NCBI RefSeq assembly: GCF_030733265.1 | Contig: NZ_JASHJI010000026.1 | Location: 1 to 64,000, forward strand | DNA: 64,000 bases | Reading direction: 5' to 3' | DNA from: Roseibium sp. MMSF_3412 | Lineage (GTDB): Bacteria > Pseudomonadota > Alphaproteobacteria > Rhizobiales > Stappiaceae | Shown here: piece after piece, positions 13,108 to 57,816 of the stretch | Layout of the letters: each line of letters begins with the position of its first letter | Numbering within the stretch: the first letter of the stretch is position 1 | Position numbers and translations under genes: made by a program | The notes under the pieces: model-generated | Told to the model about the DNA's origin: nothing | What the model saw: the letters and a program-made list of their open reading frames with translations, nothing else | The model's database searches: none

Positions 13108-13119
13108 CTCGTCAGGTCG

Positions 13120-17641: not shown

Positions 17642-17712
17642 GTCTTTTCCGCCTTGTGCTGAACCAGGAACAAGGATGAAGAACGATTGCTTGCGCATCC
17701 ATGCGAGGAATT

Positions 17713-17734: not shown

Positions 17735-17740
17735 TATAAT
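17735..17740 (+). promoter_or_regulatory. -10 element (TATAAT) of the Lrp-type gene
   Basis: A perfect TATAAT 31 bases before the GTG start. No good -35 hexamer lies at the right distance; the palindrome occupies that place, which suggests regulator-dependent transcription. Confidence 0.5.
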
Positions 17741-17771
17741 GTGAGGTCCAGACATGATTTGAGGTGATATT

Positions 17772-39213: not shown

Positions 39214-39290
39214 CGTCACCGCAACGATCGTGAACGAACGCGGGCCCGCTCACGAGGGCTCGCTTCCCGACCCGGCAAGAGGGCGTCCCG

Positions 39291-41183: not shown

Positions 41184-41199
41184 AACGAGCGAAACGGAT

Positions 41200-41775: not shown

Positions 41776-41821
41776 AGCACCCGGGCGACAGCTCATTTTT
41801 CAATCCGGAGAGGATCATCAC

Positions 41822-42393: not shown

Positions 42394-43377
42394 TCAGGCC
42401 TGTTCGCCGATCAGGTCCCGGCCCATCTGCGCAAACAGATCCAGGTAGTCGAGCATGACCCAGTTCTCCATGATCTTGCCACTTGCGCATCGGTAGAAGT
42501 CCATGACGCGAAGCGTGAGCGCCTTGTTGGTGGCCGGAACGCCGATATAGTCGCCCTTGTGGGTCATTGTCATGGAAGGCCAGCCGCTGACAGCAGCATA
42601 GTTGCCGTCGCCGATCCGGCAATAGTGGTTGCCGCCGACACGGTCGGGAAACGCCGTCAGAAAGGACGCCCGGTGATCCTTTTCAAACCCGCTCCAGCGG
42701 TAGTTTGAGCCGATCCCGCCCGGTCCGTACCAGAGCATGTCTTCATGCCAGTAACCGTCGTCGCCGGTCTGACCCTTGGACGTGAAGTTTTCAGGGTCGA
42801 AGGCTTTCAGGTCGGCCAGCATCGCCTCGCACAGGTCGAGGGTTTTCTCGCCATCTCCCTGACCCACGGGAACCACGCCGTCATGGGTCGCCGGGCCCGG
42901 GAAAAGCATCTCCGTTCCGAGCAGACGGGGCAGGGGGAATCGCTCGGCCTGACGCATGAGGTCGATCAGGTCCAGGATGATCTTGGCTTCCGAGATCCGC
43001 CCGTCCTCTTCTACGCGGTAGAATTCGCCCGAACGCAGAAACACCAGATGGTTCGACGGTTTGACGCCGAAGAGCGGCTTTTCGAAATTGCCGAGATAGT
43101 GAGTGAAAGATGCACACCAGTGGCCGCCGGGCTCGCGCCGGTTCGGCCCGCCGATAAAAATCTCGTCGCGGCGGCGTACATGCGAGAGAGCCTCTTTCAG
43201 CGGCTCGAAAAAGGCATCGCGAACGCTCTCGCGCCCGGTCAGACGGTTCACCGGGTGCGCGACATCGAAGGTCACGTCTTCCTTCAGGTGCCGGGCGAGA
43301 AGGTCGCCGGTCTCATGCACCGGTGAGGTCAATACTGTGTTCAAAAAGCCATGGGGAGCGAGCCGGAAATCGGACAT
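42394..43377 (-). CDS. SnoaL/NTF2-like bidomain protein A
   Basis: A 327-residue cytosolic protein with two SnoaL-like (polyketide-cyclase/NTF2-fold) domains of about 150 residues each. The C-terminal domain ends in the signature DFYRCASGKIMENWVMLDY...AQMGRDL, shared with proteins B and C of this cluster. SnoaL-like folds catalyse cyclisations, isomerisations, dehydrations or epoxide openings. It is transcribed away from the ABC transporter, with two operator-like palindromes between. The start follows AAGG. The reaction is unknown. Confidence 0.8.
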   Translation of the reverse strand: MSDFRLAPHGFLNTVLTSPVHETGDLLARHLKEDVTFDVAHPVNRLTGRESVRDAFFEPLKEALSHVRRRDEIFIGGPNRREPGGHWCASFTHYLGNFEKPLFGVKPSNHLVFLRSGEFYRVEEDGRISEAKIILDLIDLMRQAERFPLPRLLGTEMLFPGPATHDGVVPVGQGDGEKTLDLCEAMLADLKAFDPENFTSKGQTGDDGYWHEDMLWYGPGGIGSNYRWSGFEKDHRASFLTAFPDRVGGNHYCRIGDGNYAAVSGWPSMTMTHKGDYIGVPATNKALTLRVMDFYRCASGKIMENWVMLDYLDLFAQMGRDLIGEQA

Positions 43378-43420
43378 TGGATACCTTGCGAGTTTCAGAG
43401 CTATGAAGGTATAGCAACAA

Positions 43421-43440
43421 TTTTGCATTCGTATGCAAAA
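43421..43440. promoter_or_regulatory. LacI-type operator candidate O1
   Basis: TTTTGCATTCGTATGCAAAA: an 8-base perfect inverted repeat around TCGT. It lies 44 bases upstream of gene A and shares its arms with O2 and O3. Confidence 0.75.
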
Positions 43441-43475
43441 AATCGTTGCCAAAGTCTTTTTGCTGTGTCTAGCTG

Positions 43476-43495
43476 TTTTGCATAGGAATGCAAAA
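43476..43495. promoter_or_regulatory. LacI-type operator candidate O2
   Basis: TTTTGCATAGGAATGCAAAA: the same 8-base arms as O1 around AGGA, centred 55 bases from O1 (about five helical turns) and 27 bases before the ABC ATPase gene. The pair could support looping and control both divergent units. Confidence 0.75.
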
Positions 43496-43521
43496 TTGGT
43501 CTGAAAACAGTCGAAGAGGGG

Positions 43522-44583
43522 ATGGCTGTGGCAGAAATTCAGCTCAAGAATGTGTCGAAGCGGTGGGGATCCTTTGTCGGCGTCGACAATTTCGATCTCA
43601 CGATCGCCGACCGTGAGTTTCTGGTACTTCTCGGCCCGTCCGGCTGCGGCAAGACGACAACGATGCGCATGATCGCCGGACTGGAAGACGCGACCGGCGG
43701 CGAGATCGTTATTGGCGACAGGGTCGTGAACGACCTCGATCCGAAAGACCGGGATATCGCCATGGTATTCCAGTCCTACGGTCTTTATCCGAACATGAAT
43801 GTCTACGAGAACATTCGCTTTCCCCTGAAAGTTCGCAAGGTCGACCCGGCAACGCATGATGAACGCGTGCGCCGGGCAAGCGCGATGGTCGAACTGGACG
43901 AGTTTCTGCACCGCAAGCCTGCGGAACTTTCAGGCGGTCAGCGCCAGCGTGTCGCGCTCGCACGTGCGATCGTGCGGGAGCCGAATGTGTTCCTCATGGA
44001 CGAGCCGCTTTCGAACCTTGACGCAAAACTGCGCGTGTCGACGCGGGCGCAGATCAAGAACCTCCAGCACGAGCTCAAGGTCACCACCATCTACGTCACG
44101 CATGACCAGATCGAGGCGATGACGCTGGCTGATCGGGTCGTGGTGATGAAGCGCGGGATCATCCAGCAAGTGGGCTCGCCAACCGAAATCTATGATCGCC
44201 CTGCCAACACGTTCGTTGCCAGCTTCATCGGGTCGCCGGCGATGAACCTCATGCAAGGCACGCTTGCCGGGGGCACCTTTACCGGCGAGAACGTGACGAT
44301 ATCCGGTCTGAATGCGCCTGACGGTCCGGTCACGCTCGGTTTCCGTGCGGAGGATGCGGCGGTTGCCGGTTCGAGCGCCGAGGCGGAGATCAGCGCTCCC
44401 GTCTATACGATGGAACTCCTGGGCGATGCCACGATGATCACGGTGAAAGCCGGCGGAGCGCTGGTGTCGGTCAAGGCCAACAAGGACTACCGCATCGAGA
44501 TCGACGAGACGGTCGGTTTGCATATTCCGGCGGAGATCTGCCACCTTTTCAATCATGAGACCGGCGCGCGCATCGACGCGTAA
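43522..44583 (+). CDS. ABC transporter ATPase, MalK/UgpC type
   Basis: A 353-residue ATPase of a carbohydrate-type importer (CUT1). Walker A is GPSGCGKTT, the signature is LSGGQRQRVALARA, Walker B is VFLMDEPLSNLD, and the switch His is in YVTHDQIEAMTLADR. The C-terminal TOBE domain (~residues 245-350) is present. An alternative GTG start six bases later exists. First gene of the plus-strand importer operon. Confidence 0.93.
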   Translation: MAVAEIQLKNVSKRWGSFVGVDNFDLTIADREFLVLLGPSGCGKTTTMRMIAGLEDATGGEIVIGDRVVNDLDPKDRDIAMVFQSYGLYPNMNVYENIRFPLKVRKVDPATHDERVRRASAMVELDEFLHRKPAELSGGQRQRVALARAIVREPNVFLMDEPLSNLDAKLRVSTRAQIKNLQHELKVTTIYVTHDQIEAMTLADRVVVMKRGIIQQVGSPTEIYDRPANTFVASFIGSPAMNLMQGTLAGGTFTGENVTISGLNAPDGPVTLGFRAEDAAVAGSSAEAEISAPVYTMELLGDATMITVKAGGALVSVKANKDYRIEIDETVGLHIPAEICHLFNHETGARIDA

Positions 44584-44660
44584 GCCTGTCCGGACCCGGC
44601 GCATAGCCGAAAACCAGAAGAGCGCCACAGGGCGCATGGAACAGCAGGGAGACCTGACGC

Positions 44661-45866
44661 ATGCTCAAGAAACTTCTTCTCGCCAGTGCAATGACACTGG
44701 CAGTCACGGGTGCGGCAAGCGCGTGTGATTTTGAAAATACGACGCCGGTGAAATCGCTCTCCGCCGGCTTTGAAGCCTGGAAGGCGGTCACTTCTTTCAT
44801 GGCCAAGTGCGGCGATTTCGAAGCCGAACTTGACCAGGAGTTCCGGACCAAACAGCCAGCGGCTTTCGCGGCCGATCCGTCGCTTTACCAGATCGGTGGC
44901 GTTGCTAACGGGACGCTGGTTCCGTTGCTCAATGAAGGCACGATCCGTCCGCTTGACAGCCTGATCGAGAAATACGGTCAAAACCTCACGGCGAACCAGC
45001 TCATCAAGATCAACGGCGAGACCATGGCCGTTGCCATGATGGTCAACGCGCAGCACCTGATGTACCGCGAAGACATCCTCACCGATCTCGGTATTCCGGT
45101 TCCCAAGACCTATGACGAAGTGCTGGCAGCGGCAGCCAAGATCAAGGACGCGGGCGTCGTCGACTATCCGATCGGCGGCACGTTCAAGACCGGCTGGAAC
45201 CTCGGCGAGGAATTCGTCAACATGTATCTGGGCATGGGCGGCGAGTTCTTCGGTCCGGACAATTCGGCAACCATCGACAACGAGCAGGGCGTTGCATCGC
45301 TCGAAATGCTCAAGAAGCTGACCGAGTACATGGATCCGGAATATCTCGTCTCCGACAGCACCTATGTCCAGCAGCAATTCCAGCAGGGCAAGATCGCCAT
45401 GGCGAACCTGTGGGCGAGCCGTGCCGGCGCAATGGATGATCCGAACGAGTCCCAGGTCGTCGGCAAGGTCAAGATGGCCGGTGCACCGACAGCAAATGCC
45501 CGCGCAGCCTCGACCCTTTGGTGGGACGGGATCGTGATTGCCAAGAACGCATCGGACGAAGAGGCAGAAGCTGCTTTCCGTGTTGCCATGAACGGCATGA
45601 CGCCGGAAATGGTCAAGGCAAACAACGATGTCGCCGTCTGGCTGGTTGAAGGCTACGAGCCGGGTCCGCTTGCACTTGGTGTGGTCCAGACGGCTGAGGC
45701 CGGCGCGCTGCCCTATCCGGCAAGCTCGCAGATGGGCCTTATGCACACCGCGCTTGGAAACGGTGTCGCCGACTATCTGACCGGCGCCAAGGATGCCCAG
45801 ACGACGCTGAAGGATATTTCCGCGGCGTACACGACCTCCGCCAAGGAAGCCGGCTTGATCAAGTAA
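44661..45866 (+). CDS. ABC transporter periplasmic binding protein (sugar type)
   Basis: A 401-residue exported protein (signal ending near GAASACD) of the extracellular solute-binding type 1 family used by CUT1 importers. Typical middle parts are TMAVAMMVNAQHLMYREDIL and FQQGKIAMANLWASRAGAM. The first part of the mature protein is unusual in lacking the common early Trp-His strand and in having two Cys (residues ~22 and 50). It should bind the cluster's substrate. Confidence 0.9.
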   Translation: MLKKLLLASAMTLAVTGAASACDFENTTPVKSLSAGFEAWKAVTSFMAKCGDFEAELDQEFRTKQPAAFAADPSLYQIGGVANGTLVPLLNEGTIRPLDSLIEKYGQNLTANQLIKINGETMAVAMMVNAQHLMYREDILTDLGIPVPKTYDEVLAAAAKIKDAGVVDYPIGGTFKTGWNLGEEFVNMYLGMGGEFFGPDNSATIDNEQGVASLEMLKKLTEYMDPEYLVSDSTYVQQQFQQGKIAMANLWASRAGAMDDPNESQVVGKVKMAGAPTANARAASTLWWDGIVIAKNASDEEAEAAFRVAMNGMTPEMVKANNDVAVWLVEGYEPGPLALGVVQTAEAGALPYPASSQMGLMHTALGNGVADYLTGAKDAQTTLKDISAAYTTSAKEAGLIK

Positions 45867-45881
45867 GCCGCTGACGCCTCC

Positions 45882-45905
45882 GCGAAGGGCGTTCGCGCCC
45901 TTCGC
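45882..45905 (+). other. Intercistronic 10-bp hairpin after the binding-protein gene
   Basis: GCGAAGGGCG pairs with CGCCCTTCGC around a stable TTCG loop. There is no T run, so it more likely protects the binding-protein mRNA end or partly attenuates the operon, as known in sugar ABC operons, than fully terminates it. Confidence 0.65.
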
Positions 45906-45998
45906 CCTGGAGCGCTTCTGAAGAATTCGGGGCGGCCAGCCACGTATTCCTCAAAAGGCCTCCGGCCACGATCACCGCGCGTTTCAAGGGAGGGCAGC

Positions 45999-47024
45999 AT
46001 GAATGCCAAGACCTTTGCCGCCTTTGTCGGCCCGTCCATCTTTTTGATGCTGCTTTTCATTGCTGCGCCGCTGATCAGCGTGTTCATGCAAAGCTTCTAT
46101 ATAACCCAGCCCGTCTTCGAGACGGTGCAGGTCGAAACCTGCACGCCCGGTTTTCCGAACCAGACCTGTGTGACCGAGGAAAAGGTGCAACCGGTCCTGG
46201 GCGAGGACGGTAAAGTGATAACCACCGTCAAGTATGTCGGCCTGGAAAGCTACGTGAACGTTCTGGAACCCGATCGCGCCTGGGCGGCACTGAAGGCGTT
46301 GGATTTCGGTTCCCTGCTGACGATCGATTTCTGGAAAGCCCTCCGCTTCACCTTGACCTTCACGCTGGTAACGCTTCCGCTCGTGATCGGCGTCGGGCTG
46401 GCGATCGCAATAACAGTCAACAACGCCACCCGCATGATACGCGGCCCCATCATCTTCATTTCCCTGTTGCCGTTCATCATCACACCGGTGATCGGCGCGC
46501 TGTCGATCCGCTGGCTTTTCATCGGTGACGGCATCATGACCGCGTTTCTGGAATGGTGGCTCGCGCGCGACATATCCATGTTCGCGCAAGGCTGGACGAT
46601 CGAACTCCTGATGATGTTCTACCGGGTCTGGCACGTGGCGCCATTTGCCTTCGTGGTCTTCTATGCCGGCCTTCAGACCGTCAACCAGGATACCTTGGAA
46701 TCGGCCGTGATCGACGGTGCCAGCCGCTGGGAACGGCTCCGGTATGTCGTTATTCCGCACCTGATGCCGTTGATTGTCTTCATCTCGCTCATCCACCTGA
46801 TGGATTCCTACCGCGTCTTTGAGGAGATCGTCGGGTTCTCCAGTCAGGCGTACAGGATCTCGCTGCAGTGGCTGACCTACGATCTGCTTACGCCTGACGA
46901 CAGCGGCAACCGCTCCATCTCACGCGCCTCTGCAAGCGCAATGCTCACCATGATCGGAATTGTCGTGCTGCTGGTGCCGCTCCTGCGCAAGACCTGGCGC
47001 GATCACAAGGGGGGACGGGTATGA
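45999..47024 (+). CDS. ABC transporter permease, MalF-like
   Basis: A 341-residue inner-membrane protein with six to seven helices. The ATPase-contact loop is DTLESAVIDGASRWERLRYVVIP. A ~60-residue hydrophilic periplasmic loop with two Cys (VETCTPG ... NQTCVTE) lies between helices 1 and 2. A TGAG overlap joins it to the next permease gene. It pairs with the MalG-like protein. Confidence 0.9.
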   Translation: MNAKTFAAFVGPSIFLMLLFIAAPLISVFMQSFYITQPVFETVQVETCTPGFPNQTCVTEEKVQPVLGEDGKVITTVKYVGLESYVNVLEPDRAWAALKALDFGSLLTIDFWKALRFTLTFTLVTLPLVIGVGLAIAITVNNATRMIRGPIIFISLLPFIITPVIGALSIRWLFIGDGIMTAFLEWWLARDISMFAQGWTIELLMMFYRVWHVAPFAFVVFYAGLQTVNQDTLESAVIDGASRWERLRYVVIPHLMPLIVFISLIHLMDSYRVFEEIVGFSSQAYRISLQWLTYDLLTPDDSGNRSISRASASAMLTMIGIVVLLVPLLRKTWRDHKGGRV

Positions 47025-48178
47025 GTTCGCCGAAATCCATGCAGCAACCGATGGCGCTGCGCCTTTCCTCTGCCGGTTTCCTTGCTTTCTGGTGCCTCCT
47101 GGCGTCGTTCCCGATCTTCTGGATCGCGGTGATGAGCTTCAAGGATCCGATCGATGCGTTCGCCTCGAACCCTCTCAGCGTCATCTTCGGGCCGGAAACG
47201 GTCGCGACCGGGCGGGGCCTGTCGATCGTCAGCATCGTCGTCGGCGCTGCCGTTCTCTGGTACACCGTGCACCTGGCCGTTACCAAACTTCCACGCGTGG
47301 TGACGCAACTTACGCCGCCGGAATTGATCGTGCCGGGCTGGATCATCGGCGCGGTGGTGTTTGCGCTCGGTTTCCTGATCGTTTTCTTCGGTATTCTGCC
47401 GCCGGTCCTGGGTGTTCTGAATTCGGTGCTTGGTCCCCTCGGCAAGCCGATCCTCGGGCTGACGACCGAGCATTACCAGGCGGTCTGGGCCGAGAATGCG
47501 TTCTACGAGAATTTCATCAACTCGCTGATCATTACCGTCGGGGTTGTCACGGTATCGCTTACCGTCGGCACGCTGGCCGGCTACGGCCTGGCCCGGTCAG
47601 GTTCCAGCCTTGCCTTCTGGATCCTGATCGTCGCACTGGTGTTCCGGGCGCTGCCGCATTCGGTTCTTGTTGCCGGTTACCTTCCGCCCTTCATCAATTC
47701 GGCGGAAATCCTGCGCCCGATCCTCGGGGAGGCGGCACCGACGCTCTACGGCAAGCCGTGGGCGGTGATTGCCGTGCTGGTCTCCATCAACCAGCCGTTC
47801 ACGATCTGGATGCTGCGTTCATTCTTCCAGAACATCCCGAACGAGCTGGATGAAGCGGCGCGCGTCGACGGCTGCACCCATTTCCAGGCGTTCAGGTGGG
47901 TGATCATGCCGGTCATGTGGCCAGGGGTCATTACGACCGGGCTGTTCAGCTTCCTCCTGGCCTATAACGACTATCTCGTCTGTTCGCTGCTTCTGGACGC
48001 CCAGAACCAGACGATGGTCCCGGCTATTGCGGGCTATTTCAACCGCGAGACGACGACAACCGACCAGGTTGAAGCCGTGGCCGCCGCCGTTTCGATCATC
48101 GCTCCGCTGTTCCTGCTGATCATGATCTTCCAACGCCAGATCGTCAGCGGTCTGACGGCCGGTGCGGTGAAGGGCTAG
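47021..48178 (+). CDS. ABC transporter permease, MalG-like, with inserted segment
   Basis: A 385-residue inner-membrane protein, roughly 100 residues longer than usual MalG-type permeases. The extra part follows helix 1 and contains two more hydrophobic stretches (SIVVGAAVLWYTVHLAV and IIGAVVFALGFLIVFFGILP). The EAA loop is NELDEAARVDGCTHFQAFRWVIMP. It starts in a four-base overlap with the MalF-like gene. Confidence 0.9.
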   Translation: MSSPKSMQQPMALRLSSAGFLAFWCLLASFPIFWIAVMSFKDPIDAFASNPLSVIFGPETVATGRGLSIVSIVVGAAVLWYTVHLAVTKLPRVVTQLTPPELIVPGWIIGAVVFALGFLIVFFGILPPVLGVLNSVLGPLGKPILGLTTEHYQAVWAENAFYENFINSLIITVGVVTVSLTVGTLAGYGLARSGSSLAFWILIVALVFRALPHSVLVAGYLPPFINSAEILRPILGEAAPTLYGKPWAVIAVLVSINQPFTIWMLRSFFQNIPNELDEAARVDGCTHFQAFRWVIMPVMWPGVITTGLFSFLLAYNDYLVCSLLLDAQNQTMVPAIAGYFNRETTTTDQVEAVAAAVSIIAPLFLLIMIFQRQIVSGLTAGAVKG

Positions 48179-48219
48179 GCCATGCGCTCTTTTGAAACAC
48201 ACGTTCCTAAAGGTGAAAC

Positions 48220-48756
48220 ATGAAGGGTTCGCGTCCCGAACAGGCTGTGCTGAGCCGCGACACGGATATGAGCAAGACGGATGATACGCGCCGTGTCATC
48301 GAAGACATGGTCGATGGACTCAACGACCATCGGATCGCCGATATCGGGGAGTTTTTCTCCGACGGCTTCCGCTGGCTCGGCAACACAGGTTGCGGCACCA
48401 AGACCGGGTTGAAGGAGTTTCAGGACAATTGGCAAAAACCGTTCCAGGCAGCTTTTTCCGACAAGGTGTGCGTTGACGAGGCCCGGCTCTACATGGGCGA
48501 GTGGGCGGCTGCGTTCGGGCGTCAGGAGGCAACGCATTCAGGCGAATTCATGGGGCTTGCACCGACCGGAAAGAGGGTTGAGATCCGCTACATGGATTTC
48601 TGGAAGGTCGTCGACGGCAAGATTGTCGATAACTGGGTCATGGTCGACTTCCCGCATGTTCTGGCGCAACTCGGCAAGGATGTTTTTGAAGGGCAGGGCT
48701 GGGAGGCCTTCGACCGTGGCGAGCGCAACCCACCTGCGCCGACCAAGGCCGCCTGA
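48220..48756 (+). CDS. SnoaL/NTF2-like single-domain protein B
   Basis: A 178-residue cytosolic protein with one SnoaL-like domain, ending in the same signature as A and C (YMDFWKVVDGKIVDNWVMVDF...AQLGKDVF). AAAGGTG precedes the ATG. It is the last gene of the importer operon, followed by operator candidate O3. An internal ATG at 48268 is an alternative start closer to the domain. Confidence 0.82.
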   Translation: MKGSRPEQAVLSRDTDMSKTDDTRRVIEDMVDGLNDHRIADIGEFFSDGFRWLGNTGCGTKTGLKEFQDNWQKPFQAAFSDKVCVDEARLYMGEWAAAFGRQEATHSGEFMGLAPTGKRVEIRYMDFWKVVDGKIVDNWVMVDFPHVLAQLGKDVFEGQGWEAFDRGERNPPAPTKAA

Positions 48757-48803
48757 GTTTGGATTACGTAGTATTTCGTGCAGCGTTGTTTGTTGCTTGA
48801 AGT

Positions 48804-48823
48804 TTCTGCATACGTATGCAAAT
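48804..48823. promoter_or_regulatory. LacI-type operator candidate O3
   Basis: TTCTGCATACGTATGCAAAT holds the perfect core TGCAT-ACGT-ATGCA of O1/O2 with slightly weaker flanks. It lies 78 bases before the HisD-like gene and would control the second half of the cluster. Confidence 0.72.
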
Positions 48824-48900
48824 TGAATGGAAAAGACGGGTGCTGCGGTGAAAAGAGACCTTGAAAAACTGGTCCGCCGGCGCTTTGAAAGGGATGAAAC

Positions 48901-50211
48901 ATGGCCATTGAGTATCTGAAGCGCGGGAAGCCGGAAGCCGAGCGTTCCGAAGACGATGCCAAGGTCCGCTCCATCGTGGAGGGGACGCTCAAGGAGATCG
49001 AAACCCGCGGCGATGCCGCCGTGCGCGAACTGTCCGAGAAATTCGATAACTACGCTCCGTCCTCGTTCCGGCTCAGCGGATCGGAGATAGCGGCCCTGAT
49101 GAACCAGGTCTCGGCACGCGACATGGAAGACATCAAGTTCGCGCAGGAGCAGGTGCGCAAATTTGCCGAGGCACAACGTGCGTCGATGCTGGATATCGAG
49201 GTCGAAACGATGCCGGGCGTCATCCTCGGCCACAAGAATATTCCGGTGCAATCGGTCGGCTGTTATGTACCCGGCGGCAAGTTTCCGATGGTGGCTTCGG
49301 CGCACATGTCGGTGGCGACCGCATCGGTGGCGGAGGTGCCGCGCATCATAGCGGCGACGCCGCCGTTCAAGGGCGCGCCAAACCCGGCGGTGATTGCCGC
49401 CATGCATCTTGGCGGGGCGCATGAAATATACGTCCTCGGCGGCATTCAGGCGGTTGGCGCGATGGCGATCGGAACCGAGACGATCGATCCAGTGCACATG
49501 CTGGTCGGGCCGGGCAATGCCTTTGTTGCAGAAGCCAAGCGTCAGCTGTTCGGCCGTGTCGGTATCGATCTCTTTGCCGGGCCGACGGAAACAATGGTCA
49601 TCGCCGACGACACTGTGGATGCGGAGATGTGCGCCACCGATCTCCTCGGTCAGGCCGAGCACGGTTACAATTCGCCGGCGGTCCTTGTGACCAATTCCCG
49701 AAAACTGGCGACAGAAACGCTTTCTGAAATCGAGCGCCTGCTCAAGATCCTGCCGACAGCCGACACCGCGTCCAAGTCCTGGGAGGACTATGGCGAGGTG
49801 ATCGTCTGCGACACCTACGATGAAATGCTGGCCGTTGCCGACGATATTGCCTCGGAACATGTCCAGGTCATGACCGACCGGGACGACTGGTTCCTGGAGA
49901 ACATGACCTGCTACGGCGCCCTGTTCCTGGGCGCGCGCACCAACGTCGCCAATGGTGACAAGGTGATCGGCACCAATCACACGCTGCCAACCAAGAAGGC
50001 CGGGCGCTATACAGGCGGGCTCTGGGTCGGCAAGTTCCTGAAAACCCATTCCTATCAGAAGGTTCTGACCGACGAGGCTGCAGCCGAGATCGGCGCGTAC
50101 TGCTCGCGGCTTTGCATGCTGGAAGGGTTTGTCGGTCATGCCGAACAGGCCAATGTGCGTGTCCGCAGGTATGGCGGCGGCAACGTGCCTTACGGAGAGG
50201 CCGCCGAATAG
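48901..50211 (+). CDS. HisD-superfamily dehydrogenase (HpsN-like), catabolic
   Basis: A 436-residue NAD-dependent enzyme of the histidinol dehydrogenase superfamily. Zinc and catalytic parts are conserved: [35 protein letters not shown] and ASEHVQVM (Glu-His). The context is catabolic, and the sequence resembles the sulfopropanediol dehydrogenase HpsN branch rather than biosynthetic HisD, so it probably oxidises a primary alcohol to a carboxylate in two NAD-dependent steps. First gene of the second operon, behind O3. Confidence 0.85.
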
Positions 50212-50212
50212 C

Positions 50213-51262
50213 ATGGACAGGCATACCCGGCACAAACAGCTGATCGCGCCGCTCCGGGCGGCCATGTACGACTTTGAGGAGACTTCGGTCCGCAAAACGC
50301 TCGCGGACATTTGCACGCCCGATGTCCTGTTCAGGCTGTGCCACCCGTTCGGCGACACCGCCGGAACGGACGCGTTTTACGACAAGGCCTATGCGCCCCT
50401 GTTCAGGGCGATCCCGGATCTTGAGAGGCGCGACACCATCGTCATGGCCGGGCCGACACCGGAAGGCAATGACTGGGTCGGCTGCGGCGGCTATTACACG
50501 GGCTCCTTCGAAAGACCGTGGCAGGATGTTCCGGCAACAGGCCATCAGGTGGCCATGCGGTTTCACGAGTTCTATCGCTTCGTCGACGGGAAGGTCGTCG
50601 AGTTTCAGGCGCTCTGGGATTTACCGGAAGTGATGATGCAGGCAGGTGCCTGGCCAATGGCTCCGAGCCTTGGCCGCGAATGGCATGTACCTGGGCCGGC
50701 GACCGAAGACGGGATCGTGCCGGGCCCTTATGACGAGGCTTCGGGCAAAGAGACGTGCCAGCTGATTGTCGATATGCTGGAACACATGAAGCGGCATCCG
50801 TCACAGGGCGGGCCCGAGGTGATGGAGATGCCAAAATTCTGGCATCCGCGCATGAGCTGGTACGGGCCGTCGGGAATTGGTACCGGACGCGGGATAAACG
50901 GTTTCCGCAAGTGGCACCAGATCCCGTTTTTAAAGGCCATGCCGGATCGCGGCCAATATGTCGATCAGATCGAGTATCACTTCTTCGGCGACCGCAACTA
51001 TGCCGCTGTCACCGGGTGGCCCGACATGATCCAGTCGGTCACCCATGACGGCTGGATGGGTATTGCGCCGGCGGGCAGGAAAATCACCATGCGCAGCCTC
51101 GATTTCTGGCGCGTGGAAAATGGCCTGATCCGTGAAAACTGGGTCATGGTCGACCTTCTCGACGCTTATGCGCAATTGGGTGTTGACGTTTTCAACCGAC
51201 TTCGCGATTTCAACAAGGCCCGTGTGGGCTTTGACCCGGAAACCGGAGTTGCGCTTCCATGA
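50213..51262 (+). CDS. SnoaL/NTF2-like bidomain protein C
   Basis: A 349-residue cytosolic protein with two SnoaL-like domains, related to A along its whole length (WYGPSGIGTGRGINGF matches WYGPGGIGSNYRWSGF of A) and sharing the terminal signature SLDFWRVENGLIRENWVMVDL...AQLGVDVF. The ATG at 50213 lies one base after the dehydrogenase stop. It overlaps the SDR start as ATGA. The reaction is unknown. Confidence 0.82.
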   Translation: MDRHTRHKQLIAPLRAAMYDFEETSVRKTLADICTPDVLFRLCHPFGDTAGTDAFYDKAYAPLFRAIPDLERRDTIVMAGPTPEGNDWVGCGGYYTGSFERPWQDVPATGHQVAMRFHEFYRFVDGKVVEFQALWDLPEVMMQAGAWPMAPSLGREWHVPGPATEDGIVPGPYDEASGKETCQLIVDMLEHMKRHPSQGGPEVMEMPKFWHPRMSWYGPSGIGTGRGINGFRKWHQIPFLKAMPDRGQYVDQIEYHFFGDRNYAAVTGWPDMIQSVTHDGWMGIAPAGRKITMRSLDFWRVENGLIRENWVMVDLLDAYAQLGVDVFNRLRDFNKARVGFDPETGVALP

Positions 51263-52026
51263 TCGACCTTCCTTCCACTCCCAGCTTTTCCCTTGCAGGC
51301 AAAAAAGTGCTTGTTGCCGGAGCGTCTTCAGGCATCGGCCTTGCTTCTGCGGTCGCCTTGGCGGAGGCGGGAGGAGAGGTGGTCCTGGCAGCACGCAGGA
51401 CGGAGAAGCTCGACGAGGCCGTCGAAGCGATCCGGGCGAAAGGCTTCAAGGCGTCCGCGTTGCAGCTGGATATTGCCGACGTCCTTGAAGTGCAGGTCAG
51501 CATCGAGAAACACGGGCCTTTCGACGTCCTGGTCAACAGCGCCGGGCTGGCGCGCCACAGTGCGGCCGTCGACACCACGCCCGAGGATTTCGATGCCGTC
51601 ATGAACGTCAACGTGCGCGGGGCTTACTTCGTTACGAAATGCGTCGCGAAAGGCCTGATCGCGGCGGGCAGATCCGGGTCGCTGATCAACATGAGCTCGC
51701 AGATGGCACATGTCGGGGGCATTGACCGTGCGGTCTACTGTGCGTCGAAATTCGCGGTCGAAGGGTTCACCAAGGCCATGGCGCTCGAGTTCGGACCGCA
51801 CAAGATCCGGGTCAACACCATCTGCCCGACATTCATTCGCACACCGCTGACCGAGCAGACCTTCGACAATCCGGACCGCGTCCAGTGGATCGAGGAGAAG
51901 ATCAAGCTTGGCCGTACGGGTGTCGTCGAGGACATCATGGGAGCGGTGCTTTATCTGGCAAGCGATGCCTCCGCTCTGGTCACCGGAACCTCGCTTCTAG
52001 TCGATGGAGGTTGGACAGCGGACTGA
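51259..52026 (+). CDS. Short-chain dehydrogenase/reductase
   Basis: A 255-residue classical SDR: VAGASSGIGLASAVALAEAG (cofactor), VNSAGLARHS, catalytic Ser in INMSSQMAH and YCASK (Tyr and Lys), and the end segment ALVTGTSLLVDGGWTAD. It probably oxidises a secondary alcohol to a ketone, or the reverse. Start overlaps gene C and stop overlaps the LacI gene (TGATG). Confidence 0.92.
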   Translation: MIDLPSTPSFSLAGKKVLVAGASSGIGLASAVALAEAGGEVVLAARRTEKLDEAVEAIRAKGFKASALQLDIADVLEVQVSIEKHGPFDVLVNSAGLARHSAAVDTTPEDFDAVMNVNVRGAYFVTKCVAKGLIAAGRSGSLINMSSQMAHVGGIDRAVYCASKFAVEGFTKAMALEFGPHKIRVNTICPTFIRTPLTEQTFDNPDRVQWIEEKIKLGRTGVVEDIMGAVLYLASDASALVTGTSLLVDGGWTAD

Positions 52027-53057
52027 TGCGCTCCGAGAAAGTTACTTCCGTTGACGTTGCCAAAAAGGCCGGTGTCAGCCAGTCGGCAGTCAGCCGTGTG
52101 TTCACGCCGGGCGCATCGGTGTCTCCGAAGATGGCGGACAAGGTTCTGAAAGCCGCCGACGAACTCGGTTATCGTCCCAACGTGCTTGCCCGTTCGCTGA
52201 TCACCGGCCGGTCGAAGATCATTGGCCTTGTCGTCGCCTATCTGGAAAACCAGTTCTACCCGGACGCACTGGAAAAGCTCTCCACGGCGCTGCAGGAACA
52301 CGGCTATCACATTCTGGTTTTCATGGTCTCCAACGACGATGCCAGCGTCGACAAGGTGATGGGAGAACTGCTGGACTATCAGGTCGACGGCATCATCACG
52401 GCGTCAGTCGGAATGTCGAATGCTCTTGCAGCGCGGTGTTCGGCCGCCGGCGTGCCCGTGGTTCTGTTCAACCGTGGCCAGGACGACGAGAGACTGAACC
52501 AGGTCACGTCCAACAACCTGGCGGGCGGCCGCAAGATCGCGGAATTCCTGCTGGCCGGAGGACACACAAAAATCGCTCATATTGCAGGTTGGTCCGGGTC
52601 TTCCACCGGCCGCGACCGCGAAGCCGGCTTTCGTGCCGGTCTGGCAGCAGCCGGTGTCGAGCCTGTCGCCTGTATCGACGGCATGTACAAGCGCGAGACC
52701 GCGGCCGCCGCCGCCCGCGAGCTCTTTTCCGGTAAGGACCGCCCGGACGCGGTCTTCGTCGGCAATGACCACATGGCCTTCGCGGTCATGGACGTGCTGC
52801 GTTTCGAACTCAAGCTGGACGTGCCGGGTGATGTTTCGGTCGTCGGTTACGACGACGTACCGCTCGCGTCCTGGCCTGCCTACGACCTGACAACCTTGCG
52901 GCAACCCTCGAACCGGATGGTGGAGGCAACGGTCTCCACGCTGCTCGGGTGGATCGAGGAGGGCAGCAACGATGTCCGAAAAATTCAGATAGACGGACCG
53001 CTGATGATCCGCGGTTCCGCACGCATACCCCAAGGATGGCCCGATGAAAGGCTTTGA
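52026..53057 (+). CDS. LacI-family transcriptional regulator
   Basis: A 343-residue regulator. The N-terminal HTH is TSVDVAKKAGVSQSAVSRVF and the hinge LARSLITGRSKIIGLVV; the rest is a periplasmic-binding-protein-like ligand domain (PDAVFVGNDHMAFAVMDVLRF, VVGYDDVPLA). It is encoded inside the catabolic operon and is the natural binder of the three TGCAT-N4-ATGCA palindromes O1-O3, whose form is typical of LacI operators. The effector is probably the substrate or an intermediate. Confidence 0.95.
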   Translation: MRSEKVTSVDVAKKAGVSQSAVSRVFTPGASVSPKMADKVLKAADELGYRPNVLARSLITGRSKIIGLVVAYLENQFYPDALEKLSTALQEHGYHILVFMVSNDDASVDKVMGELLDYQVDGIITASVGMSNALAARCSAAGVPVVLFNRGQDDERLNQVTSNNLAGGRKIAEFLLAGGHTKIAHIAGWSGSSTGRDREAGFRAGLAAAGVEPVACIDGMYKRETAAAAARELFSGKDRPDAVFVGNDHMAFAVMDVLRFELKLDVPGDVSVVGYDDVPLASWPAYDLTTLRQPSNRMVEATVSTLLGWIEEGSNDVRKIQIDGPLMIRGSARIPQGWPDERL

Positions 53058-54012
53058 CCCTCGCTGGACGGATTTCCCCGATTACATCATCGGGATTACC
53101 AGGGAAATCTGGGAAGATCGCAAGATTGCGACCCTGCATCACTACTATTCGGACGACATTGTCGTGCGCTCGCCCGCTTCCGTCGTTGTCGGAAACAAGG
53201 GCGTGATCGGCGCGACCATGGCAACGCTCGCCGAGTTTCCTGACAGGACCCTTCTGGGGGAAGATGTGATCTGGTCCGGTTCGCCGGAAGAAGGCATGCT
53301 TTCATCTCACAGGATCATATCGACCGCGACACATCTTGGCGACGGCGTCTACGGGGCGGCCAGCGGCAAGAAGCTCCAGTACCGGATCATTGCCGACTGC
53401 CACGCCATCAACAACCAGATCAACGATGAATGGCTGATCAGGGACCAGGGCGCGATCGTTCGTCAGATGGGCTGGGATCCGAAGCAATACGCGCTGGATC
53501 TGATTGCGCGTGAGGGCGGTCCGGACACCTGTGTTCATCCTTTCACCCCCGCCATCGACAAGCCGGGCCCCTACAAGGGCAAGGGCAACGACAATGAATG
53601 GGGCGAACGCTACGCGGATATCCTGTCGCGCATCATGGCGGCGGACATCGCTGTTATCGAGGCCGAATACGACCGGGCCTGCGCGCTGTTTTACCCGGGG
53701 GGTGTCAACGGTCACTCGTTTGGTGCCGCCGACCGTTTCTGGATGGGTCTGCGCGCGAGTTTTCCCTCCGCCGACTTCAGGGTCGAGCACCGCATCGGCC
53801 GGGACGACCCGCTGATGCCGCCAAGAGCCGCCATTCGCTGGTCGCTGCACGGCAGGCACGACGGCTGGGGTGCTTTTGGCGAGCCGAGCGGGGCCGAGGT
53901 TTATGTCATGGGCGCCTCGCATGCCGAATTCGGGCCCTGGGGCCTGCGCCGCGAATACACGCTTTTTGACGAAACGGCGGTCTGGAAACAGATCGCCCTG
54001 AAGACCGGATAA
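53044..54012 (+). CDS. SnoaL/NTF2-like bidomain protein D (divergent)
   Basis: A 322-residue cytosolic protein made of two SnoaL-like domains, but without the NWVMVD signature of A-C, so a distinct subfamily. Recognisable parts are YYSDDIVVRSPASVVVGNKG in the first domain and FYPGGVNGHSFGAADRFWMGLRASFPSADFRVEHRIG in the second. The start overlaps the LacI gene end by 14 bases. Function unknown; it is likely to act on an intermediate of the pathway. Confidence 0.75.
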   Translation: MKGFDPRWTDFPDYIIGITREIWEDRKIATLHHYYSDDIVVRSPASVVVGNKGVIGATMATLAEFPDRTLLGEDVIWSGSPEEGMLSSHRIISTATHLGDGVYGAASGKKLQYRIIADCHAINNQINDEWLIRDQGAIVRQMGWDPKQYALDLIAREGGPDTCVHPFTPAIDKPGPYKGKGNDNEWGERYADILSRIMAADIAVIEAEYDRACALFYPGGVNGHSFGAADRFWMGLRASFPSADFRVEHRIGRDDPLMPPRAAIRWSLHGRHDGWGAFGEPSGAEVYVMGASHAEFGPWGLRREYTLFDETAVWKQIALKTG

Positions 54013-54033
54013 TTTTTAAGAACAGGTTTGGTT

Positions 54034-54999
54034 ATGAGCCCTGAAGAAATGGAAACCCGGATTGTACGCTACGGAGATCTCAAGCCGTGCCGTACCGCTT
54101 TCATCGATGCCCACACGCCAGGATCGGATCAGAAGGAAAACTTCACGATTATCGGCGGCGGTGTCTCCGAAAGCCCGGACCAGCATGTCCACATCAAGGA
54201 TACGCCGGGTTTCAATATCGGTGCGGCCGGTCAGCCGCCCAAATGCCGCAACTCGCTGCATTCGCATACGACAGCGGAAGTGTTCTTTGTCCTGAAGGGC
54301 AGATGGCGGTTCTTCTGGGGGCGCTGGGGAACGGCCGGAGAAGTTGTGCTCGAGGAAGGCGATATTTTCAATATCCCGACTGGCATCTTCCGGGGCTTTG
54401 AAAACATCGGCACTGATTACGGAATGATCATGGCGATCCTTGGCGGCGATGACGCCGGTGGCGGGGTGACCTGGGCACCACAGGTTATCGAGGATGCCAG
54501 CGACCATGGCCTTGTTCTGGGGCAGAACGGCGTTCTCTACGACAGCAAGAAAGGCCAGGCCCTGCCCGAAGGTGTCAGCCCGATGCCGCTTTTGAGCGAC
54601 GAGGAACTGAAGGCGTTTCCGGAGCCTGGAAACGATGCAGTCGTGAAAGATTATGTCGCGCGCTACTGGGACATGATGGCGCTCGGGGCCAAGGCACCGT
54701 GCCGGGTGATTGGCGAACATGGATTGCTGAAAGATCGTCCCGGCTTCGAAGTCGATTTCCTCACCCGCGGGTCGATCCCCGAGGCGAGCTACAGCCTCTA
54801 CAGCCACGAGATCCTCATGGTCATGCGGGGCCATTGGAAACTCGGCTGGTGCGGTGGCGAAAAGGTGCTGGCTCCGGGCGATACCTGCGCTGTTCCGCCG
54901 GGACTGGAGCACACTCTTGTTCCGTCCATGAGCGGTGAGGCGAGCCTTTTCCGTGTCATGAACACAGACGACCCGGCAGGTCCGACCTGGGTGGGATAA
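54034..54999 (+). CDS. Bicupin protein, possible dioxygenase or isomerase
   Basis: A 321-residue two-cupin protein. The first barrel has a complete metal motif (SLHSHTTAEVFFVLKG, then GDIFNIPTGIFRGF). In the second barrel the first motif is degraded (LYSHEILMVMRG has one His only) although the end GDTCAVPPGLEHT is kept. Gentisate-dioxygenase-like and other bicupins share this layout. The start at 54034 is preferred to a TTG six bases earlier. It may open a ring or rearrange a keto-acid; unproven. Confidence 0.8.
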   Translation: MSPEEMETRIVRYGDLKPCRTAFIDAHTPGSDQKENFTIIGGGVSESPDQHVHIKDTPGFNIGAAGQPPKCRNSLHSHTTAEVFFVLKGRWRFFWGRWGTAGEVVLEEGDIFNIPTGIFRGFENIGTDYGMIMAILGGDDAGGGVTWAPQVIEDASDHGLVLGQNGVLYDSKKGQALPEGVSPMPLLSDEELKAFPEPGNDAVVKDYVARYWDMMALGAKAPCRVIGEHGLLKDRPGFEVDFLTRGSIPEASYSLYSHEILMVMRGHWKLGWCGGEKVLAPGDTCAVPPGLEHTLVPSMSGEASLFRVMNTDDPAGPTWVG

Positions 55000-55042
55000 C
55001 AACAGAACGGGGGTGACCCCGCCGCAGCAGCTGGGAGGACCC

Positions 55043-56176
55043 ATGAGCAAGATCGATGTGACCCATGTCGGCTCGTTGCCGCGCACGCAGGAAGTCGTGG
55101 ACTTCATCTTTGCCCGCGAAAAAGGCGAGCCGTTTGACCAAGCTTCCTTCGACGCGGCGATGGCATCGGCGGTTTCCGAAACCGTGCGCAAGCAGGTGGA
55201 CGCCGGGGTGACGATCGTCAGCGACGGCGAGACCTCGAAGATCTCGTACGCCACCTATGTAAAGGACCGGTACACCGGCTTTTCCGGTGACAGCCCCCGC
55301 AACGCGCCGGCGGATCTGAAGCTTTATCCGAGCTTTCTGAAACGGATCGCGGAAAGCGGCGGCACGCCCCAATATGCCCGTCCGATGTGCACGGGCGAGG
55401 TGCGCTCCAAGGGACAGGGGGAACTGATCAAGGACATCAAGCATCTCAAGGATGCGATGGCGACACACGGCGTGGAAAGCGGATTCATGAATGCCGCTTC
55501 ACCGGGTGTGATTTCGCTCTTCCTGCAAAATGATCACTATCCGACACGCGAGGCCTATCTGCGGGCGCTGGCCGATGTGATGAAGGACGAATACGAGACG
55601 ATCGTCGCCGCCGGTCTCGATCTGCAACTGGACTGTCCGGATCTCGCGCTGTCCCGGCACATGCTGTTCACAGACCTGTCGGATGACGAATTCCTGAAGA
55701 TTGCGGCAAGCCATGTCGATGCGCTCAACCATGCGCTTCAGAATATCGACCCGGCAAAGGTGCGGATCCATATCTGCTGGGGCAACTACGAAGGTCCGCA
55801 TGTCTGCGACATTTCCATGGACAAGGTCTTTTCGACGCTGATGTCGGCACGCGCGCGCTACGTTCTTTTTGAGACCTCCAACCCGCGCCACGCGCATGAA
55901 TGGACGGTCTTTCGCGACCGGAAATCGGAAATCCCGGATGACAAGATCCTGGTGCCGGGCGTTGTCGACACGACGACGAATTTCGTTGAACACCCGGAAG
56001 TGGTTGCGCAGCGGCTGGACCGCTTCGTTGAGATCGTCGGCATGGACAGGGTGATTGCCGGTTCCGACTGCGGCTTCGGCACATTTGCAGGCTATGGGGC
56101 TGTCGACCCGGAGATCGCGTTCGCAAAACTGAAGTCTCTGGCGGACGGGGCTGCAATCGCTGAGGCGCGTGCGTGA
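55043..56176 (+). CDS. MetE C-terminal-domain-like protein
   Basis: A 377-residue protein of the cobalamin-independent methionine synthase II / UROD-MetE superfamily. The zinc ligands of the family appear: HICWGNYEG (His-x-Cys), FETSN (Glu) and GSDCGFG (Cys), and the start HVGSLPRT is typical. In this family zinc activates a thiol for alkyl transfer; the epoxyalkane:coenzyme M transferase is a known catabolic relative. The N-terminal half of true MetE is absent, so methionine synthesis is unlikely; an alkyl-transfer or C-S step is possible. GGGAGG precedes the ATG. Confidence 0.85.
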   Translation: MSKIDVTHVGSLPRTQEVVDFIFAREKGEPFDQASFDAAMASAVSETVRKQVDAGVTIVSDGETSKISYATYVKDRYTGFSGDSPRNAPADLKLYPSFLKRIAESGGTPQYARPMCTGEVRSKGQGELIKDIKHLKDAMATHGVESGFMNAASPGVISLFLQNDHYPTREAYLRALADVMKDEYETIVAAGLDLQLDCPDLALSRHMLFTDLSDDEFLKIAASHVDALNHALQNIDPAKVRIHICWGNYEGPHVCDISMDKVFSTLMSARARYVLFETSNPRHAHEWTVFRDRKSEIPDDKILVPGVVDTTTNFVEHPEVVAQRLDRFVEIVGMDRVIAGSDCGFGTFAGYGAVDPEIAFAKLKSLADGAAIAEARA

Positions 56177-56868
56177 CACCGCTGGTTCTGCTTCCGGGCA
56201 TGATGTGCGACGCACGGCTTTACGGGCCGCAGATCGCAGCCCTGTCCGGACGCGTTCCAGTTCATCTCGCACCCATAACGGCGTTTGACACCGTCCAGGC
56301 GCTTGCGAGAGACGTTCTTGTGCATGCCCCGCCGTGGTTTGCCCTTGCGGGGCTTTCCATGGGCGGCATCGTTGCGATGGAGATCGTCAGGCAGGCACCG
56401 GATCGTGTCTTGCGGCTTGCGCTGCTCGATACCAATCCGCGCGCGGAACTTGACGAGGTCAGGCAGGCCCGCGAACCCCAGATCGCGTCGGTGCGCGCAG
56501 GCGGTCTGCACACCGTCATGCGCGACGAGCTCAAACCCAATTACCTGGCCAACGGACCGCGTCGGCAGGATGTGCTGGACATGTGCATGACCATGGCTAT
56601 GGACCTTGGTCCGGACGTGTTCGAACGGCAGTCCCGCGCCCTGCAGACCCGTCCAGACCAGCAGGCGACTTTGAAATCGGTCGAAGTGCCAACGCTGATC
56701 CTTATGGGGAGGGAGGACAGGCTCTGTCCGCTGGACCGGCATGAATTGATGAACGATCTTGTTGCCGGTTCGGAACTGAAGATTATCGAGGGGGCCGGGC
56801 ATCTGCCGACCCTGGAGCAACCCGAGGCCGTCAACGCGGCTTTCAAGACCTGGCTGGACATGGAATGA
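56173..56868 (+). CDS. Alpha/beta hydrolase
   Basis: A 231-residue alpha/beta hydrolase: nucleophile elbow GLSMGGIVAMEI (Ser), acid residue in MGREDRLCPLD and His in EGAGHLPTLEQP. The short length and no cap domain suggest a simple esterase or C-C/lactone hydrolase. It starts at GTG in the GTGA overlap with the MetE-like gene. Confidence 0.9.
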   Translation: MTPLVLLPGMMCDARLYGPQIAALSGRVPVHLAPITAFDTVQALARDVLVHAPPWFALAGLSMGGIVAMEIVRQAPDRVLRLALLDTNPRAELDEVRQAREPQIASVRAGGLHTVMRDELKPNYLANGPRRQDVLDMCMTMAMDLGPDVFERQSRALQTRPDQQATLKSVEVPTLILMGREDRLCPLDRHELMNDLVAGSELKIIEGAGHLPTLEQPEAVNAAFKTWLDME

Positions 56869-57560
56869 ACACCGAACTTTTGGACCTTCTGAAATCCGTC
56901 GATACGCCGACGGTCTGCAATGCGATTGAAGTGGCCGAGGGCAGGCGGGGCTTCAACCGGTTCACACGCGGAACGATGCTCGCGTCCGATCCCGCTGCCG
57001 GGGCCATGGTCGGCTATGCCAGAACCGCCAGGATCTCCGCGCTTGCGCCGCCGACGGAGCCGCCCGATGTCATCAAGGCCCGGCGCATGGATTATTACCG
57101 CCACATGTCCGAGGGCCCGCGCCCGGCGCTCGCCGTGGTCGAGGATGTCGACTATCCGAATGCGATCGGCGCCTATTGGGGCGAAATCAACACGACCGTC
57201 CACAAGGGACTGGGGCTCTGCGGTGCCCTGACCAACGGCGTGATGCGCGATCTCGGCGATCTGCCGGAAGACTTTCCGGTGGTTGCCGGGTCCGTCGGAC
57301 CGAGCCACGGCTTCGTTCACGTCAAGGAAATCGGCACGCCGGTGAAGATCTTCGGGCTGGACATTCAGCCAGATGAACTGGTGCATGCCGACCGGCACGG
57401 CGCGCTGGTTATCCCTGAGGACGTGATACCGGCACTCGCGGCTGCAATCGGTAAATTGCTTGAGACCGAAAAGCTTGTTCTTGAACCGGCGCGTCAGCCC
57501 GGCTTCGATTTCGAAAAATTCCAGGAAGCCTGGGCGGCTTTCGAAAAGGCCAGAACCTGA
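56865..57560 (+). CDS. RraA-family aldolase/decarboxylase-like protein
   Basis: A 231-residue protein of the RraA / HMG-CHA aldolase superfamily: GEINTTVHKGLGLCGALTNGVMRDLGDLP matches the substrate and metal-binding loop (Arg and Asp in MRDL), and GDIQ-like end parts follow. Catabolic members cleave 4-hydroxy-2-oxo acids or decarboxylate oxaloacetate. Being last in the operon, a terminal C-C cleavage role is plausible. It overlaps the hydrolase gene by four bases. Confidence 0.85.
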   Translation: MNTELLDLLKSVDTPTVCNAIEVAEGRRGFNRFTRGTMLASDPAAGAMVGYARTARISALAPPTEPPDVIKARRMDYYRHMSEGPRPALAVVEDVDYPNAIGAYWGEINTTVHKGLGLCGALTNGVMRDLGDLPEDFPVVAGSVGPSHGFVHVKEIGTPVKIFGLDIQPDELVHADRHGALVIPEDVIPALAAAIGKLLETEKLVLEPARQPGFDFEKFQEAWAAFEKART

Positions 57561-57624: not shown

Positions 57625-57816
57625 ACCGCTGTCAACGCTTTCGGAAGTTGCTCGTGCTATGTTTAGGGCACGTGGCCGCATCCTGTTTGCGTGATCTCCT
57701 GTTGCATTTCAGCGAAAAATAGTATACCGCCGCATACAATTCATTTTGCCCGGCTTCCGGCGCCTGATGAGAGGCCGCGCCGAAGCCTCAAGAAACCCCA
57801 GTTCCCGAGGACGCTC

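Follow-up and report, generated by a model that had tools for sequence, protein, structure and literature searches.

The 64-kb window analyzed here comprises positions 1 to 64 000 of contig NZ_JASHJI010000026.1 of Roseibium sp. MMSF_3412, and at positions 42394–57560 it contains a gene unit for an ABC importer, a LacI-family regulator, and a set of enzymes around a two-domain cupin protein (the bicupin). We propose, with a probability of roughly 0.4, that this is an inducible operon for the catabolism of methylated C7 cyclohexenones, namely the mycosporines, the mycosporine-like amino acids (MAAs), and 4-deoxygadusol, which is the core of both, and that a sister version of the otnK type serves for gadusol. 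Each of the proteins belongs to a known superfamily, and the gene set as a whole matches no pathway known to us. Our computations show which genes are conserved together, where the operator-like sites lie, to which enzyme families and folds the proteins belong, how genes are exchanged among the variants, and that the mass balance closes. Gene content and family chemistry point to the substrate and the reactions, which would make this a ring-cleavage catabolic operon with a substrate class that is narrowed but unproven.

Conservation and regulation of the gene unit

When named genomes were scanned with the bicupin, at least 571 relatives were found, and the best 80 of these loci, some of them cut by contig ends, were used for the conservation counts. 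These loci are mostly from Hyphomicrobiales and Rhodobacterales, with one labelled Marinobacterium; the closest named ones, at 88–92% bicupin identity to that of the 6.2-Mb host genome, are ten from Roseibium or Labrenzia. A HisD-like alcohol dehydrogenase was detected in 62 of the 80 loci, a short-chain dehydrogenase (SDR) in 66, SnoaL in 66, LacI in 67, and an α/β-hydrolase in 68, with a MetE-like gene in 52 and an RraA-like gene in 48. HisD, SDR, and LacI all stand beside the bicupin in 54 loci. Because these genes are detected together, the unit is not a chance neighborhood. The cluster genes were called by tblastn with references from the clusters themselves, and divergent members can escape such a search.

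The MetE-like gene was used as an independent anchor. It was matched in 72 of 385 genomes of the class, and 41 of the 72 were tested for the bicupin; the untested matches include one genome (G1207) with a half-length match of 67%. At MetE-like identities of 66% or more, the bicupin lies within 1 kb in 15 of 17 tested genomes, the host's own excluded, and in the remaining two the genes are split between contigs. Five further genomes, with MetE-like identities of 50–55%, have a cupin within about 7 kb. Over all 41 tested genomes, a cupin is near the MetE-like gene in 20, on a separate contig in 2, and without a match in 9, while 10 have weak matches that were not counted. Gene-neighborhood clustering across genomes was one of the checks proposed in the original prediction of this system, which had been made from the letters of the window and a list of its open reading frames, and by both anchors the unit recurs.

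In Alphaproteobacteria, these genes recur together as one unit, and relatives are found in Gammaproteobacteria, Bacillota, and Deinococcus; the recorded hosts come from soil, leaves, skin, and sea. Relatives of the Vibrio cupin occur in 25 of 398 genomes sampled across the phylum. Within the genus, the bicupin is present in 21 of 45 genomes, including that of the host, and thus the operon is accessory. Three alphaproteobacterial genomes of 1.4–1.6 Mb, with a guanine plus cytosine (GC) fraction of 0.30–0.32 in the fetched stretch (L189, L190, and L191), carry the binding-protein, permease, SnoaL, MetE-like, and cupin genes, together with a HisD at 76–77% identity. Two of the three also have the SDR and the RraA-like gene, and the hydrolase was not detected in the cluster stretches of any of them. 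These small genomes are perhaps streamlined ocean lineages. As a separate observation, four genomes of one family (G1314, G1397, G1220, and G1468) have 10–14 weak cupin relatives each, an unusual expansion.

The unit had been described as one regulon with shared operator-like palindromes, and this description is supported. Three copies of the palindrome TTTTGCAT-N4-ATGCAAAA lie in the cluster, and they are predicted to be LacI-type operators. When up to three mismatches were allowed, four matches were found in the window with 0.15 expected, and none of 100 shuffles reached four; the fourth match, at 63487, is outside the cluster. There are 31 copies of the core TTGCAT-N4-ATGCAA, spread over 27 of 132 related loci; none of them is inside an annotated gene, and the core does not occur in the shuffled loci (one mononucleotide shuffle per locus).

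Cluster variants and the proposed reaction mechanism

What does the unit look like in other bacteria? Among the annotated plasmid records, that of Klebsiella has LacI, HisD, SDR, MFS, hydrolase, HpcH/HpaI aldolase, and cupin genes. The clusters of Pantoea, Novosphingobium, and two Deinococcus contain two HisD, SDR, SnoaL, an amidase or carbon–nitrogen hydrolase, cupin, hydrolase, and HpcH, and Priestia has the same set with one HisD. In Rhizorhabdus wittichii, we find SDR, hydrolase, HpcH, and cupin; in Roseomonas, the hydrolase, cupin, and HpcH are at the end of the record, with further neighbors outside it. Vibrio, Salinivibrio, and Thioclava combine cupin, HpcH, and hydrolase with otnK, an aldolase where otnC would stand, and either otnI or a gene for a TIM-barrel protein, and HisD and SDR are absent from these clusters. 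The Ensifer variant is like the Vibrio type without otnI, with a SnoaL-type gene, LacI, and an importer 57–77% identical to that of the window in addition. The OtnK proteins of Vibrio, Thioclava, and Ensifer score above the NCBIfam cut-offs, as do the OtnC proteins of Vibrio and Thioclava, and the Ensifer OtnC is just below (241 vs 250 bits). More distant cupins, as in Rhodococcus and Cupriavidus, sit in other gene settings. Since the cupin, the hydrolase, and a pyruvate-type aldolase, either RraA or HpcH/HpaI, are kept across the variants, they form the common center of the system.

For the locus counts, a stretch was kept if, in the stored orientation, the cupin match was preceded by more than 7 kb and followed by more than 3.5 kb, which left 105 of 132 loci in a first count and 124 of 154 in a second. 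Loci L001–L003, L108–L136, L165, and L166, which are short or duplicate or lack the cluster, were excluded from both counts, and L189–L198, added later, are in neither. Two unrelated aldolase families alternate in the 124 loci, with RraA in 59, HpcH in 48, both in 9, and neither in 26 (P = 4e-7). HisD is present in 0 of 10 otnK loci and in 93 of 114 other loci (P = 3e-7), and within the clade of long cupins in 0 of 10 and 12 of 19, respectively (P = 0.001); the Fisher tests behind these values ignore relatedness. SnoaL is found in just one of the 10 otnK loci. In the first count of 105 loci, HisD accompanies the SDR in 78 of 82 SDR loci, and an amidase or carbon–nitrogen hydrolase is present in 15 of 18 loci with two HisD. 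The hydrolase and the MetE-like gene are not strict alternatives: among 154 cupin loci, 61 have both, 68 the hydrolase alone, 7 the MetE-like gene alone, and 18 neither. GMC oxidoreductase genes (7 loci) and a glutathione-transferase-like gene (6 loci), which was named by reading its sequence and has no NCBIfam hit at the limit used, recur as accessory genes and give no clue to the substrate.

Two further arrangements were seen in single records. In L168 and L169, of Rhodobacterales type, cupin, HpcH, hydrolase, and RraA stand in one row without otnK, and the RraA there may act at a later step. On a Marinovum algicola plasmid (L106, 17524–25733), the cluster is followed by opposite-strand genes named as dimethylsulfoniopropionate (DMSP) demethylase and DMSP breakdown proteins.

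The reaction mechanism that we propose is as follows. The LacI protein would sense the compound and leave its operators, the ABC importer would take the compound up, and the SnoaL-type proteins would strip off its amino-acid substituents. Oxidation of the CH2OH on the ring to COOH would fall to the HisD-like enzyme. The methoxy methyl group could be lost in one of two ways: the MetE-like enzyme could transfer it to a thiol, probably homocysteine, while the ring is still closed, or ring cleavage could turn it into a methyl ester for the α/β-hydrolase to hydrolyze. The bicupin, with O2, would cut the ring between the enol carbon and the carbon bearing the methoxy group to give 4-carboxy-4-hydroxy-2-oxoadipate, and RraA would then release pyruvate and oxaloacetate, as LigK-type RraA aldolases do with this acid. 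In the otnK branch, gadusol would be cleaved, demethylated, and split to pyruvate and 3-oxo-tetronate, followed by OtnK and OtnC.

The mass balance closes for both branches. Gadusol plus O2 and H2O minus methanol equals pyruvate plus 3-oxo-tetronate; 4-deoxygadusol, with its CH2OH oxidized first, gives 4-carboxy-4-hydroxy-2-oxoadipate and then pyruvate plus oxaloacetate, with the SDR left over. The mutual exclusion of otnK and HisD is as expected if the CH2OH is either oxidized by HisD or kept, ending in 3-oxo-tetronate. For pyruvate release to leave 3-oxo-tetronate, a tertiary alcohol bearing CH2OH and CH(OH)COOH is needed, and ring closure between the two carboxyl groups of this C7 compound would give the gadusol skeleton. 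Gadusol carries a 2-methoxy group, which after cleavage would appear as a methyl ester, and thus there would be work for the hydrolase. A MetE-like zinc methyltransferase fits the removal of a methoxy methyl group. Gadusol has no amino group, and the rarity of SnoaL in the otnK loci agrees with this. Mycosporine-glutaminol, a fungal compound, has an amide and an amino alcohol, which the combination of a second HisD and an amidase would suit. We put forward somewhat more tentatively a widespread pathway for consuming the mycosporine and gadusol sunscreens of algae, fungi, and animals, one that would extend to the alphaproteobacteria with small, low-GC genomes. In it, cupin ring opening and MetE-type methyl transfer to homocysteine would be combined with entry of the carbon into central metabolism, through HisD with RraA in the MAA branch or OtnK with OtnC in the gadusol branch.

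The same enzyme logic of alcohol oxidation, cupin ring opening, hydrolase, and aldolase could also act on a different substrate. Another methylated or acylated ring compound, such as a plant or fungal pyranone, a furanone, or another cyclitol enone, could be degraded oxidatively, and we regard this as possible and rather unlikely. All of the evidence up to the pathway center applies equally to such a compound, and the broad range of hosts in soil, on leaves, on skin, and in the sea favors it. However, the otnK variants require 3-oxo-tetronate after the loss of pyruvate, which calls for a C7 skeleton carrying a tertiary alcohol with CH2OH, and by our reasoning no common natural ring except the gadusol type meets that demand. 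Kojic acid was set low as a substrate, with the aldolase and the otn genes unexplained, and pantothenate, opines, and betaine lipids were also considered.

Comparison with known enzymes and other candidate substrates

The AlphaFold2 model of the bicupin has a predicted local distance difference test (pLDDT) value of 75 and a predicted template modeling (pTM) score of 0.80, with residues 20–60 poor. Both domains were matched by Foldseek to quercetinases, oxalate decarboxylase, and salicylate 1,2-dioxygenase at 11–18% identity, and quercetinase YxaG (1y3t) and salicylate 1,2-dioxygenase (2phd) are among the best matches, with E about 1e-12. Twenty relatives, 31–82% identical to the window protein and including single-cupin forms, all have residues H78, H80, E84, and R122. 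Bicupin dioxygenases usually have a metal site of three His, often with a Glu, whereas the window bicupin has His, His, and Glu, with Arg-122 where a third His is usual.

The cupin model bears on an oxygen-free route from a sugar acid or polyol, with the cupin as an isomerase, the hydrolase as a lactonase, and the aldolase splitting a 2-keto-3-deoxy acid. The importer is of the sugar type and is accompanied by a LacI regulator, the SDR is KduD-like (below the cut-off), and aldolases of the HpcH family also use 2-keto-3-deoxy sugar acids, with GarL and YfaU hits below the cut-off. Nevertheless, the best matches of the cupin model are dioxygenases and oxalate decarboxylase, and the MetE-like, amidase, and SnoaL genes are left unexplained, so we consider this route improbable; plain sugar acids were set low on the same grounds. 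The original prediction had taken the importer type to suggest a sugar, polyol, or glycoside-like compound, and the comparison of the variants points instead to oxidative cleavage of a methylated ring.

The quercetinase-like cupin would also suit ascorbate-like reductones, in which HisD and SDR would oxidize the CH(OH)–CH2OH side chain, the cupin would cleave the enediol, and the hydrolase would split an oxalyl ester. The pairing of HisD with SDR in 78 of 82 SDR loci resembles that of HpsN with its partner dehydrogenases, and the mass balance to oxalate plus threonate closes. In this scheme, however, the aldolase has no step, the MetE-like, SnoaL, and amidase genes have no role, and the annotated neighbors of the otnK clusters include no tetronate dehydrogenase. 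We therefore judge ascorbate quite improbable, and it was set low for the idle aldolase and the missing dehydrogenase.

The closest solved relative of the HisD-like protein is HpsN, sulfopropanediol 3-dehydrogenase (PDB 8v35 and 8wwe), with E = 3e-113, as had been anticipated. In the alignment, the two share the motifs QAEHG, ASEH, GDK, and LEG..H, including those to which we assign zinc and catalytic roles. Unlike HpsN, the HisD-like gene lies in a ring-cleavage cluster with an importer and LacI, and there are no sulfonate genes in the unit. Could HisD act as HpsN in the catabolism of a sulfonate or thioether? Besides the likeness of HisD to HpsN, the MetE-like protein is of a thiol-dependent type, and in the Paracoccus alcaliphilus record genes for a taurine importer and a D-cysteine desulfhydrase lie beyond the unit on its downstream side. 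On the other side, no gene named as a sulfo-lyase is present in the annotated neighborhoods read, which does not bear out the earlier suggestion of a sulfonate; a second HisD with TRAP, SDR, and LacI genes is on contig 30 of the same genome; and the cupin, hydrolase, and aldolase would stand idle. This makes it very improbable, and sulfonates were set low as no desulfonation genes were seen in the unit. The contig 30 locus (L165, 300000–319999, about 11650–18160), whose HisD is 48% identical to the HisD of a sister cluster, is possibly of the dihydroxypropanesulfonate type.

Across 36 sequences, the zinc ligands of the MetE-like protein, H242, C244, E276, and C342, do not vary, and neither do S10, E62, and D196, which presumably match the homocysteine contacts of MetE. 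Its model has a pLDDT of 88 and matches the core methionine synthase 3rpd with a template modeling (TM) score of 0.75. With that cobalamin-independent enzyme, it has in common the fold and the His, Cys, Glu, Cys zinc ligands. Unlike the core methionine synthase, it is encoded in a catabolic operon, and it scores below the NCBIfam cut-offs.

The RraA-like protein belongs to the fold family of the LigK/ProA 4-carboxy-4-hydroxy-2-oxoadipate aldolase (3noj), with which its Arg-Asp motif, presumably of the active site, aligns; nevertheless, the similarity is weak (E = 0.0085), and the TIGR02798 score is 22 vs the required 304.5 bits. In Rhizorhabdus wittichii, the aldolase slot by the cupin is occupied by an HpcH protein (Swit_5035, L089 14228–14983) with 100% identity over 250 residues to PDB 6r62, a structure deposited under the name hydroxyketoacid aldolase, whereas the window has RraA there. 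OtnK and OtnC genes of the otnK/otnC/otnI 3-oxo-tetronate pathway stand in the sister clusters but are absent from that of the window, which has HisD in their stead.

Several points weigh against mycosporines and gadusol as the substrates. The SDR has no step, even though HisD is present in 78 of the 82 loci that have it; SDR without HisD is found in 4 of 105 loci. The hydrolase and the MetE-like gene are both present in 61 of 154 loci, although either alone should be enough, and neither is present in 18 of 154, several of which are partial or distant. Both aldolase families are present in some clusters, and since L168 and L169 have RraA and HpcH in one operon without otnK, a simple exchange of aldolases is weakened; neither aldolase is within range in 26 of 105 loci. 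In Ensifer, otnK and otnC stand together with a gene of the SnoaL type and an importer like that of the window, and an extra assumption is needed for this. Finally, the cupin has the Arg at what is usually the place of the third His.

Layout of the locus and biological implications

The features are listed in Table 1. The span, the gene identities, and the coordinates of the unit were correctly recognized in the original prediction, as were the importer, the two dehydrogenases, the four SnoaL-type proteins, the MetE-like protein with its zinc ligands intact, the hydrolase, and the RraA-like protein; the count of fourteen genes is corrected to 15, of which 14 are on the + strand and one, snoA, is divergent on the − strand. 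The reading frames of 12 of the 14 + strand genes and of snoA were rechecked. The genes had been called mostly overlapping, which is slightly strong: of the 13 + strand junctions, 6 overlap by 1–14 bases, 3 have gaps of 1–15 bases, and 4 have gaps of 41–144 bases. Three of the SnoaL-type proteins have two SnoaL-like halves and one is single-domain. Solved relatives of the binding protein are too distant to name its ligand.

Table 1. Genes and predicted operators of the unit, in window coordinates.
Feature	Position	Strand	Remarks
snoA, tandem SnoaL-type protein, 327 amino acids (aa)	42394–43377	−	Pfam SnoaL, two stretches; start taken at MSDFRLAP
Operator-like palindrome TTTTGCAT-N4-ATGCAAAA, exact	43421–43440		Between snoA and ABC ATPase gene
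Operator-like palindrome TTTTGCAT-N4-ATGCAAAA, exact	43476–43495		Between snoA and ABC ATPase gene
ABC importer ATPase, UgpC/MalK type	43522–44583	+	NCBIfam PRK11650.1, 449 bits vs cut-off 432
Solute-binding protein, SBP_bac_1	44661–45866	+	
Permease A	45999–47024	+	Pfam BPD_transp_1
Permease B, MalG-like	47021–48178	+	
snoB, single-domain SnoaL-type protein, 178 aa	48220–48756	+	Closest solved structure: nogalonic acid methyl ester cyclase
Operator-like palindrome TTTTGCAT-N4-ATGCAAAA, 2 mismatches	48804–48823		Before HisD-like gene
HisD-like alcohol dehydrogenase, 436 aa	48901–50211	+	Nearest solved protein: HpsN
snoC, tandem SnoaL-type protein, 349 aa	50213–51262	+	
SDR, 255 aa	51259–52026	+	KduD-like, below cut-off
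LacI-family regulator, 343 aa	52026–53057	+	
snoD, SnoaL-type protein, 322 aa	53044–54012	+	Second SnoaL-like half weaker
Bicupin, 323 aa	54028–54999	+	Proposed ring-cleaving dioxygenase
MetE-like protein, 387 aa	55013–56176	+	Start may be 55046; proposed thiol methyltransferase
α/β-Hydrolase, 231 aa	56173–56868	+	PcaD-like, below cut-off
RraA-like protein, 231 aa	56865–57560	+	Proposed pyruvate-releasing aldolase

Just downstream of the end of snoA, the stretch 38284–42346 encodes a small cupin, a protein with a ricin-type lectin domain, and a TRAP transporter of the TAXI type, which consists of a solute-binding protein and a fused permease. On the other side, acnB, for aconitase B (57691–60609), follows the RraA-like gene after 130 bases on the same strand and is probably separate from the operon.

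Among natural UV filters, mycosporines and MAAs are common in phytoplankton, seaweeds, corals, lichens, and fungi; gadusol is found in fish eggs and brine shrimp. We know of no named genes for the catabolism of any of them. The comparison joins orphan families, namely the HisD-like, tandem SnoaL, bicupin, MetE-like, RraA, and HpcH proteins, into one route with specific intermediates. It offers a possible physiological role for the solved aldolase 6r62, since Swit_5035 adjoins a cupin of this bicupin family, and the bicupin and the MetE-like gene together make a marker pair for metagenome surveys. If the proposal is true, the fate of these sunscreens as carbon and nitrogen in the surface ocean, in soil, and on leaf surfaces would become testable.

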